Assembly: GCA_014695325.1 (NCBI GenBank)
Contig: JACJNZ010000039.1
Coordinates: 372,001-436,000 of the forward strand
Source: Cyanobacteria bacterium FACHB-502
GTDB lineage: Bacteria > Cyanobacteriota > Cyanobacteriia > Elainellales > Elainellaceae
Direction: 5' to 3'
DNA length: 64,000 nucleotides
In this document: positions 49,901 through 53,889 of the stretch, piece after piece
Layout of the letters: each line of letters begins with the position of its first letter
Position numbering within the stretch: the first letter of the stretch is position 1
Notes under the pieces: model-generated
Told to the model about the DNA's origin: nothing
The model's input: the letters and a program-made list of their open reading frames with translations, nothing else
Databases searched by the model: none
Position numbers and translations under genes: made by a program

Positions 49901-51575
<1,675 letters not shown>

Positions 51576-52286
51576 ATGAACGACAGTAAAGCCTTGTTTG
51601 ACTACTGGTATGAGCAGGTTCGGCTGAAGAATCATGAGCTAGTTCAGGTTGCGGGACATGTTGAGACCTATAAGCTGCGCCACGAATGTACCAACTACGA
51701 TGAGCTCCGCTTGAGCCGTGAAGTTCAGCTTTTAGAGGAGCCAGAGCGCAGCAAAGTTATTGCCATCATTAAATATGAATGCACAGCTAAAGTTTTACAG
51801 TACCGGGCAGGTCGGTTGCGCGATCGCGCTAATCAGCTTTCAGAAACTTGCGGTGAGCTAGAAACCCAAAAAACGAAGCTGCTTCGCTTGATTCAGGCAT
51901 TGCAGGCAAAGCTGTTTGGCAAAGATAAAGAACTGGAGCAGTATAAAGCTCGCATTGCGATCCTGGAAGCCGAGAATGCAGCCCTTCAAGCCGATGCCGA
52001 GAATAGCCAGGCTGAAGTACAACTGCGAACAGAGCTAGAAAAGCTTCAGAAACAATACGATGCCGTTGAAAAGCGTAGGCGTGAACTTGCTCAAAACAAC
52101 AAGAGTTTAGGCGGCAGAGTTGCCCATACGCAGCGTTATAAACGACAGCGAGATGAAGCAATGATTCAGGTGAAAGAGCTACGAGCGCAGCTTCAATCGC
52201 TCACCCATGAGAATCAGCAGCTCCGTGCTGAAAACGATCGGCTCCGTCTTGCTTTGAACAGGGTGGAGAATCAGGCAGCTCTCTAG
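51576..52286 (+). CDS. Hypothetical coiled-coil protein
   Basis: A 236-residue soluble protein that I do not recognise. Residues 1-85 are mixed helical with two short conserved-looking pieces (DYWYEQVRLKNHELVQV, RLSREVQLLEEPERSK). Residues about 85-230 form a long coiled coil with heptad Leu/Ile/Ala positions (QLSETCGELETQ, AILEAENAALQADAEN, ENQQLRAENDRLRLAL). It lacks a signal peptide and membrane segments. It is the first of two adjacent coiled-coil genes, with 18 bp between them, so they are probably cotranscribed and may form a complex. Structural or scaffold function is only an inference. Confidence 0.7.
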   Translation: MNDSKALFDYWYEQVRLKNHELVQVAGHVETYKLRHECTNYDELRLSREVQLLEEPERSKVIAIIKYECTAKVLQYRAGRLRDRANQLSETCGELETQKTKLLRLIQALQAKLFGKDKELEQYKARIAILEAENAALQADAENSQAEVQLRTELEKLQKQYDAVEKRRRELAQNNKSLGGRVAHTQRYKRQRDEAMIQVKELRAQLQSLTHENQQLRAENDRLRLALNRVENQAAL

Positions 52287-52304
52287 AGCGAGGATTTTAT
52301 TGTT

Positions 52305-52700
52305 ATGAAACTTCAGGAATTAAAAGCAAAGGTCTACGAGCTAGCAGGGGTGACAACTCCTAAACCGCTCAAAGCAAAGTATGAGTCAATTAAAACGCTA
52401 GATTTGCGCCGTAAAGCCTCCTGGGAAAAAGCATTGGCAATTGTTCAGGAGCAGCAAAACAGCTTTGAGAACTGGGTAGAAAATCCGCCGGATGAATACC
52501 AAGAGCTATTTGCCCAGATTAAAACTGTCTCGGCAGACTACAGTGAAAAGCTTGAAAAAGTGAAGCAGATCGGGCAGGAAGTTGCTGTCATGGCTGACAG
52601 TCTTGAAGAACTTTCGCACGAGTACCAGGAAGAAGCCGATCGCCTCCAGCAAGAAGTGATTGCAGCCAAGCAAGCGGCGGAGCAGTCCCAGCTAAATTAG
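52305..52700 (+). CDS. Hypothetical small coiled-coil protein
   Basis: A 131-residue soluble, highly charged helical protein of unknown family. The N-terminus (MKLQELKAKVYELAGV) has a leucine-spaced helix, the middle reads KAKYESIKTLDLRRKASW, and the C-terminal half is a predicted coiled coil (VKQIGQEVAVMADSLEELS, ADRLQQEVIAAKQ). Start ATG 52305 lies 18 bp after the previous stop codon. Its partner in context is the coiled-coil protein upstream. I cannot assign a function. Confidence 0.65.
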   Translation: MKLQELKAKVYELAGVTTPKPLKAKYESIKTLDLRRKASWEKALAIVQEQQNSFENWVENPPDEYQELFAQIKTVSADYSEKLEKVKQIGQEVAVMADSLEELSHEYQEEADRLQQEVIAAKQAAEQSQLN

Positions 52701-52743
52701 CCTGAAGTCGCCGAGTAGAACGGTTGCGATCGCGCTTCAGCTC

Positions 52744-53889
52744 CTAATTCTGCACAAAATCTCCTCTGACCCAGCCTGTCGCACCCGACTCAAACTGGAC
52801 ACTGTACCAGGTGTAGCCGTCTGCTCCCTGAGTGCGATCGACAATGCGAACCGGATCGCCTGCGTAAGCCGTGGTTTGAACCGGGGCATCAATATCAGCA
52901 GAGGCTCGGACGTTGATCGATGCGTCGGGATCGCTGGCAGTTAGGGTACTGGATTGAGAATTAGGCGATTGAGAGGATTGAGCCGTTTCAGGACTGGCTT
53001 CGGAAGTTGGGCGATTTGCGCTGGGCTGGGTGGTGCTATTGGGGGCTGAGGCAATGGAGCTGGGTTGGGCAGCGCTGTCGGAAGTTGTTCCGCCGGTTGG
53101 GGAACTGTTTGAAACTAAGTCCCCACGTACCCATCCGGTCACGCCTGCTACGGTTTGTACGTTATACCAGGTGTAGCCATCACTGCCCGAACTGCTGCTT
53201 AAAATTTGAATCGATTCGCCGCTACTGCCAACTTCCTGAACCGGGGCATCGACACTGGCACTGGTGCGAATGTTGATCGGCGATCCGTCGGCCGTGTTGA
53301 GTGTGCCGCTTCCGGTTGCCTGAGTTGCAGAGCTGGGCTGGGGCGAAGGAGAGGCGGCTGGGCTGGCGGTTGGGCTGGCGGTTGGACTGGTTGAAGGGTT
53401 GATGCCGGGGGTTGGGCTTTCGGATGCCTGGGCAACTGGCTGAGCGTCTACCGTGCCGCCAACAAGCTGAGCAAACTGCTGTGCCTTTTCATAGCTCGTA
53501 AAGCTGGCAACTTGAACGGTCGGCTCGCCTGTGATCGCCTGAATCGTGCCGATCGCATCCTGACAGTATTTGGCACGAATCTCGTCTAGATTGCCGCCTT
53601 TGATCACCACGGGATACCAGGTTGAGGTCGGAGTCGTTTCCCGATCGCTGCACGATGCCTGAGGAAAGCTAAACTCAGCAGGCGAGGCACTGGCAGAAGG
53701 ACTGGCTGCGCTATCGAGGGGAACGCCAGGAGCATCGGCTCCTAGGTTGTAGCTGGGGCTGGCAACGCAAGAAGCTAACAATCCGGCGATCGTGACCGCA
53801 AAAAATCGCTTGCCAGTTTGACGGGGGGTTAACTGAGGAGCTAGCCGCGAGCAGCGAAGGCGAAACAAGTCGATCGAAGGAACAACCAT
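52744..53889 (-). CDS. SH3-domain lipoprotein with SPOR-like segment
   Basis: A 381-residue secreted protein. The lipobox is LLASC (cysteine near residue 41). After it come a SPOR-like segment (about 90-155, WYPVVIKGGNLDEIRAKYC and VQVASFTSYEKAQQFAQLV), a Ser/Pro/Thr-rich linker, and two bacterial SH3 domains (about 190-255 and 310-380), both with INIR/INVRAS and DGYTWY..VQ motifs and a GWVRGD ending. SH3 domains of this type bind cell-wall peptidoglycan or proteins. The two repeats are similar in sequence, so they look like an internal duplication. Converges with the coiled-coil pair. Confidence 0.83.
   Translation of the reverse strand: MVVPSIDLFRLRCSRLAPQLTPRQTGKRFFAVTIAGLLASCVASPSYNLGADAPGVPLDSAASPSASASPAEFSFPQASCSDRETTPTSTWYPVVIKGGNLDEIRAKYCQDAIGTIQAITGEPTVQVASFTSYEKAQQFAQLVGGTVDAQPVAQASESPTPGINPSTSPTASPTASPAASPSPQPSSATQATGSGTLNTADGSPINIRTSASVDAPVQEVGSSGESIQILSSSSGSDGYTWYNVQTVAGVTGWVRGDLVSNSSPTGGTTSDSAAQPSSIASAPNSTTQPSANRPTSEASPETAQSSQSPNSQSSTLTASDPDASINVRASADIDAPVQTTAYAGDPVRIVDRTQGADGYTWYSVQFESGATGWVRGDFVQN

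Follow-up and report, generated by a model that had tools for sequence, protein, structure and literature searches.

A rare cyanobacterial gene pair encoding two proteins with coiled-coil tails, one of which carries a head domain common to a group of J-domain proteins

The window analyzed here is a stretch of 64,000 nucleotides from Cyanobacteria bacterium FACHB-502 (contig JACJNZ010000039.1, positions 372,001 to 436,000 of the forward strand). An earlier note, made from the letters alone, had described two adjacent genes lying 18 bp apart in this window, and both open reading frames were found intact on the + strand: P1 (51576..52286; 236 amino acids, ATG at 51576, stop codon included at 52286) and P2 (52305..52700; 131 amino acids, ATG at 52305, stop at 52700), with an 18 bp spacer between them (52287..52304, + strand). 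The pair is flanked by two open reading frames on the − strand, one at 49901-51244, which we take to be purA, and one at 52744-53889, which is presumably an SH3-like gene, both names having been read off the sequence. A scan of the locus for promoters and terminators gave results near the shuffle expectation. Across 13 pairs of close relatives, dN/dS ranged from 0.02 to 0.26 for P1 and from 0.13 to 0.62 for P2; purifying selection acts on both genes and is weaker on P2.

P1 consists of a helical head of approximately 80 residues followed by a long tail with a heptad pattern. The head (residues 1-80; 51576..51815, + strand) is conserved across 41 aligned sequences, and the two conserved-looking pieces that had been noticed in the N-terminal region are real: they correspond to the motifs R35-H-x-x-T-N-Y-D42 (51678..51701, + strand) and I64-I-K-Y-E-C-T70 (51765..51785, + strand). 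Within the alignment L34, R35, H36, T39, N40, Y41, K66, and T70 are invariant, and D42, I65, and Y67 are nearly so. The heptad periodicity of the tail (residues 81-236; 51816..52283, + strand) exceeded that of all 5000 shuffles, whereas the same test on residues 1-80 gave no signal (p = 0.66), and the alignment also reveals that the block NNxSLGG (residues 174-180) is conserved within the tail. The AlphaFold2 model of P1, built from the 41 sequences, has a mean pLDDT of 90 and predicts a single helix from residue 57 to 235.

P2 is likewise divided into a conserved head of approximately 48-49 residues (residues 1-48; 52305..52448, + strand), which the earlier note had overlooked, and a tail of approximately 70 residues (residues 62-131; 52488..52697, + strand). 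Heptad periodicity is significant in the tail (p = 0.005) and absent from residues 1-48 (p = 0.58). The protein ends in the dipeptide L-N (52692..52697, + strand), of which N131 is invariant and L130 nearly invariant in an alignment of 33 sequences, and the AlphaFold2 model built from this alignment (mean pLDDT 92) predicts helices at residues 3-14, 19-25, 37-59, and 63-130. Both models have a pTM of approximately 0.5 and therefore imply no oligomer. The description of the two proteins as mainly coiled coil thus holds for their tails but not for their heads.

In searches of Pfam and NCBIfam, neither protein reaches a curated cut-off, which agrees with the original impression that the pair matches no known family. 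Matches to Pfam, NCBIfam, PHROGs, and PADLOC models are weak, almost all of them lie in the coiled-coil parts, and a curated cut-off is never exceeded; the YabA initiation control protein, for example, scores 24.6 bits on the P1 tail only, below the cut-off of 30. No DnaJ domain was matched in P2 at E values up to 1, and the P2 sequence contains no HPD. Profile searches of the PDB returned coiled-coil or helical-bundle chains with best E values of 0.003 (P1) and 0.004 (P2), a Foldseek search of the PDB with the two models returned nothing at E up to 0.001, and the best VIA-align scores (Z 6.9 for the P1 tail and 4.9 for the P2 tail) are helix-on-helix matches that we set aside. DUF2293 (PF10056) was considered as an identity for the P1 head, and the R-H-x-x-T-N-Y-D stretch of P1 does align to the profile from about position 46. 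Weak matches at E up to 1 occur in 11 of the 41 P1-type proteins; the P1 head scores 12.9 bits and its best relative 17.3 against a cut-off of 25, two of the eight P1-type heads scanned have no match at all, and no protein in 146 genomes exceeds the cut-off. Every protein with a listed score falls below the cut-off, and DUF2293 was set aside as a name for the P1 head and retained as a lead only. Searches of an open-access literature collection found no paper naming DUF2293, none on a cyanobacterial DnaJ or J-domain protein together with HNH, and none on a GIY-YIG and coiled-coil operon in cyanobacteria. As far as these literature searches and the Pfam and NCBIfam models reach, the pair and the P2 head domain appear to be undescribed.

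Two peptide patterns taken from the P1 head were run against the genomes of 84,980 species, one per species, and identified 42 loci, all but one of which are cyanobacterial by record title; the absence from other phyla holds for these two patterns. The hosts include Nostoc and its relatives, Nodosilinea, Phormidium, Gloeocapsopsis, Calothrix, Cyanobium/Synechococcus, one Prochlorococcus, and Pleurocapsales. The exception (L030) is a cyanobacterial-type pair on a contig of a metagenome-assembled genome labelled Planctomycetaceae, and this contig is probably misbinned. P1 is directly followed by P2 at 34 of the 42. The junction measures −14 to +45 nt in 31 of these 34 pairs, six of which overlap. 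The three pairs omitted from this count are L033 and L034, in both of which the P2 frame opens more than 300 nt downstream with no start codon assigned, and L049, whose P2 frame is truncated. A contig end falls inside P2 in L038. Eight loci have no P2 downstream, namely L051, whose contig ends 78 bp past P1, six Pleurocapsales loci (L054-L058 and L060), where a P2-head protein lies upstream of P1 instead, and L059, where neither P2 nor a P2-head protein was seen. The three-gene version of the Pleurocapsales (L055-L058 and L060) resembles the window pair in combining a P1-type head with the P2 head domain, but it differs in its reversed order (P2-head protein, P1b, P1a), in the duplication of P1, and in its head protein, which has 217 amino acids and lacks the P2 tail. 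In L055, a stop interrupts the frame of the first P1-type paralogue.

Distances between P1 sequences and between P2 sequences are strongly correlated (r = 0.92 over 30 pairs), and none of 2000 permutations gave a value as high. Because linked genes are expected to correlate, this value means joint inheritance and not contact. Nevertheless, the supposition that the adjacent coiled-coil genes encode partners gains support from the frequency of adjacency, the short junctions, and this correlation, and we consider a partnership of P1 and P2 probable. Taken by itself, the sequence would permit another reading, in which P1 and P2 are two independent housekeeping proteins that became neighbors by chance; given that the two genes stay adjacent in 34 of 42 loci despite varied surroundings and that their divergence is correlated, we disfavor this reading and regard it as very improbable.

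The pair is rare. Among 40 genomes, comprising the window's own and 39 relatives, P1 or P2 turned up in just two, the window genome and G017, so that the pair is absent from 38 of the 39 relatives. In a sample of 386 genomes across the phylum, the P1-head profile matched strongly (E below 1e-20) in five genomes and the full P2 profile (E below 1e-40) also in five. Rows judged to be chance were dropped from the P1-head profile search (G160, G337, G393, and G042), from the first P2-profile search (G166, G393, G041, G178, G324, and G188), and from the search for P1 relatives (G328). Conservation of the pair across cyanobacteria, which the earlier note had proposed to check, was thus borne out as co-occurrence but not as wide conservation, the distribution being patchy; the pair does co-occur in relatives, and no close match to a known family emerged. 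The same-genus genome G001, whose PurA is 95% identical, has no P1 or P2 match, and in blastn comparisons with two G001 fragments the pair and its spacers (51282..52739) have no counterpart: nucleotide similarity to the window ends at 51281 and restarts at 52740, at two places that are approximately 840 kb apart in G001. The P1 of the window is 58-66% identical to the P1s of Nostoc type and of Gloeocapsopsis and 31-32% identical to that of G017, a member of the same family, and this pattern suggests either transfer or old paralogy. The genes around the pair vary between lineages. Broken remains also occur: in L047 P1 is interrupted and P2 is intact, in G336 P2 is present and P1 has no detectable head, and G062 retains a P1 fragment, with no P2 match, beside a gene that we take by eye to resemble a transposase. 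One tRNA each was found at L052, L024, and L044 among 21 loci scanned and none in the window, and a tRNA-anchored island was rejected. We believe that P1-P2 may represent a small accessory operon whose two genes are acquired and lost together in cyanobacteria.

No P1 or P2 match was found in 72,556 plasmid records and no P1 match in 50,697 phage records; searches of IMG/VR with A1, the L065 open reading frame, and the P1 and P2 of L052 gave no match, and the L065 frame had no plasmid match. For the J-protein group described below, one member each was searched against the plasmids and the phages, with no match in either. A profile of this group gave 54 IMG/VR matches; none of them starts before query residue 105 and most are confined to the J domain, so they were not used.

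The P2 head is not confined to P2. The first P2 profile, which contained no J-protein, weakly matched an open reading frame of 204 amino acids in G156 (E 5e-4) that ends in an HPD-containing, J-type region. Rows dropped from the same search as chance had similar E values (2e-4 to 6e-4), so that this match alone proves nothing, and the claim is carried by an independent comparison of P2-only rows with J-protein rows (hhalign probability 96%, E 1.6e-9). The P2-only rows also align with a protein of the Pleurocapsales (93%, E 2.7e-7). A profile of the head alone, built with one J-protein (G156) and three Pleurocapsales rows among its members, matched 40 of the 386 genomes and 28 of 143 genera at E up to 0.02, the weakest matches probably being chance; rows from G111 down (E above 0.002) were dropped, except G313:C8 (L107), which was kept. 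Once P2, the close relatives of P2 in G106 and G141, and the dropped rows are removed from this census, one group of proteins of approximately 200 amino acids remains at 26 loci, 25 of which encode an HPD J domain and one of which (L105) lies in the window's own genome. In the five head-carrying proteins scanned, Pfam identifies only DnaJ above cut-off and leaves the head unnamed. On the strength of these alignments, the P2 head is a modular cyanobacterial domain, without a Pfam model, that is common to P2 and the J-protein group. It is duplicated in the P2s of L029-L032 and L048 and in the J-protein of L102.

A second gene adjoins 23 of the 26 J-protein loci and is absent beside L082, L083, and L096. 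Its products are homologous open frames of approximately 330-400 amino acids in which an HNH-type set of Cys, His-His, Asn, and His residues is invariant; the name HNH-like is taken from this motif, since one partner scores below the Pfam HNH_2 cut-off and another has no HNH_2 match. The 26 loci of the group are L082-L107, with examples of the two-gene unit at L105:3730-5337 (contig C30 of the window's own genome) and L087:1270-2906. At L096:1-1848, a head open reading frame without a J domain lies directly 5′ of a same-strand gene, which by eye we assume to be DnaK-like. The J-protein/HNH-like system (for example L105, L087, and L102) resembles P1-P2 in being a tight two-gene unit with the P2 head, present once or, in L102, twice, but a DnaJ domain stands at the end where P2 has a coiled coil, and the partner is the HNH-like protein. 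A relation of the P1 head to the HNH-like partner was sought and none was detectable, and the P1 head showed none to the J-protein.

In another reading, P1 and P2 could co-assemble as an intermediate-filament-like heteropolymer or scaffold that affects the shape of the cell or trichome. By analogy, the precedent would be ZicK and ZacK of Anabaena, which the published account describes as two interdependent coiled-coil-rich proteins forming a heteropolymer (PMC7766704). P1 and P2 are also two coiled-coil-rich cyanobacterial proteins, with heptad-patterned tails and consistent pairing, and would be a putative heteropolymer where one is described for ZicK-ZacK (PMC7766704). According to another study, the threshold for coiled-coil-rich filament proteins is at least 80 residues of coiled coil (PMC7002697); judged by heptads and not by COILS, the P1 tail has approximately 156 residues and the P2 tail only approximately 70. 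The crescentin rod model (PF19220) scores 16.3 bits on P1 against a cut-off of 100 and is not listed for P2. The pair is, moreover, ill-suited to a general role in shape, being present in Cyanobium/Synechococcus, which are unicellular, and absent from 38 of 39 relatives, and the P2 head belongs to J-proteins as well. We therefore regard assembly into such a filament as unlikely.

The genes beside the pair suggest several other stories. A GIY-YIG-type gene lies directly 3′ of P2, after a gap of approximately 30 nt, in L052, a diverged Prochlorococcus pair; its product matches T5orf172 and MUG113 above cut-off and GIY-YIG (PF01541) just below. At L073, a pair-like locus of G141, a GIY-YIG gene above cut-off is directly 3′ of a P2-like gene, the three genes overlap one another at their start and stop codons, and the P1-like protein contains an R-H-N-V-T-N-Y-D stretch, although its P1 head match has a probability of only 30%. 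Of 98 genomes, one had no GIY-YIG match and the other 97 had one to eight each, so that two such neighbors among an estimated ten or so lineages are unlikely to arise by chance, but they were noticed post hoc. Five related Nostocales loci carry an Hsp70 gene 3′ of P2 and in the same orientation (L019, L021, L022, L028, and L047; the domain was checked on L019 and assigned to the other four by homology), and a J-TPR-WD40 gene lies directly 5′ of the P2-like gene in L017, L055, and L058. Most of the pair loci whose neighbors were read have no adjacent nuclease or chaperone gene.

One of these stories is that the pair acts as a DNA-organizing or partition-like accessory, a coiled-coil clamp with DNA-bound partners. 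In G017 (L012:15248-17298), a fused HSDR_N_2/ParA-type gene and a Rho_N gene lie 5′ of the pair on the same strand; the Rho_N protein has a sub-cut-off ParB_N match, and its gene ends approximately 80 nt before the assigned start of P1. Several picocyanobacterial P2s also carry a Lys/Ala-rich N-terminal extension, which we would call histone-like only as an impression. However, the ParA linkage appears in one lineage of those seen, and the plasmid records, as noted, contain neither gene, so that we find a partition-like role rather improbable. A defense or toxin-antitoxin-type unit, in which P1 would be active and P2 would restrain it, is about equally doubtful. Its two-gene operon and patchy presence would fit, as would the pPIWI_RE-cluster genes that adjoin the pair in the Nostocales loci L020, L025, and L026 and what is left of P1 in L016 (the domains were checked at L020:7256-12693 only, and the others assigned by homology), the AAA_21 ATPase gene that is second after P2 in L030, and the intact P2s beside an interrupted P1 in L047 and a headless one in G336. 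However, neither protein matches an enzymatic family, the PADLOC-DB 2.0 matches are weak and of coiled-coil type (models JetC, DruC, LmuB, and PbeC; best E 1e-3), the neighboring genes vary from locus to locus, and the P1 fragment of G062 shows the opposite pattern.

We tentatively favor a mixed coiled-coil adaptor or clamp linked to nuclease/chaperone circuits over a cytoskeletal filament because the P2 head is common to a J-protein with an HNH-like partner and because GIY-YIG-type genes occur beside one diverged pair and one pair-like locus. The coiled-coil tails would most probably join P1 and P2 in a mixed oligomer, and the two heads, both small and helical but different from each other, would stay free to bind further molecules. 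The P2 head, being the same domain that lies N-terminal to the J domain in the protein encoded beside the HNH-like partner, may act on the same ligand there and here, and the pair would then present this ligand, perhaps a nuclease, a nucleic acid, or an Hsp70/J client. The genes themselves, the purifying selection on them, their pairing, the common domain, and the gene order are observed, whereas complex formation and the ligand of the P2 head are inferred, and the nuclease/chaperone adaptor role is put forward at somewhat less than even confidence. Against the adaptor stand the facts that nuclease or chaperone genes are missing beside most of the pair loci read, that the GIY-YIG link comprises two loci found post hoc, one of them with the 30% head match, that the Hsp70 link comes from one related group, that P2 lacks a J domain, and that the ParA and Rho_N genes of G017 and the pPIWI_RE genes of the Nostocales suggest otherwise.

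A broader proposal, which we consider rather unlikely, is that the P2 head is an unrecognized adaptor that couples DNA nucleases both to Hsp70/DnaJ, in the J-protein/HNH-like unit, and to the P1-P2 clamp, with GIY-YIG in its most diverged versions, so that P1-P2 would be a branch of a new nuclease-licensing or genome-defense family. If this were true, a domain of approximately 49 residues would connect three otherwise separate gene sets (the J-protein, the nuclease-type genes, and the coiled-coil pair), two "hypothetical" genes would become a testable complex, and the P2 head could serve as bait for the role of the J-protein/HNH-like operon of many cyanobacteria. As a minor observation, the pair occurs twice, on different contigs, in both Microcystis elabens FACHB-917 (L039/L042) and Vulcanococcus limneticus LL (L041/L043).
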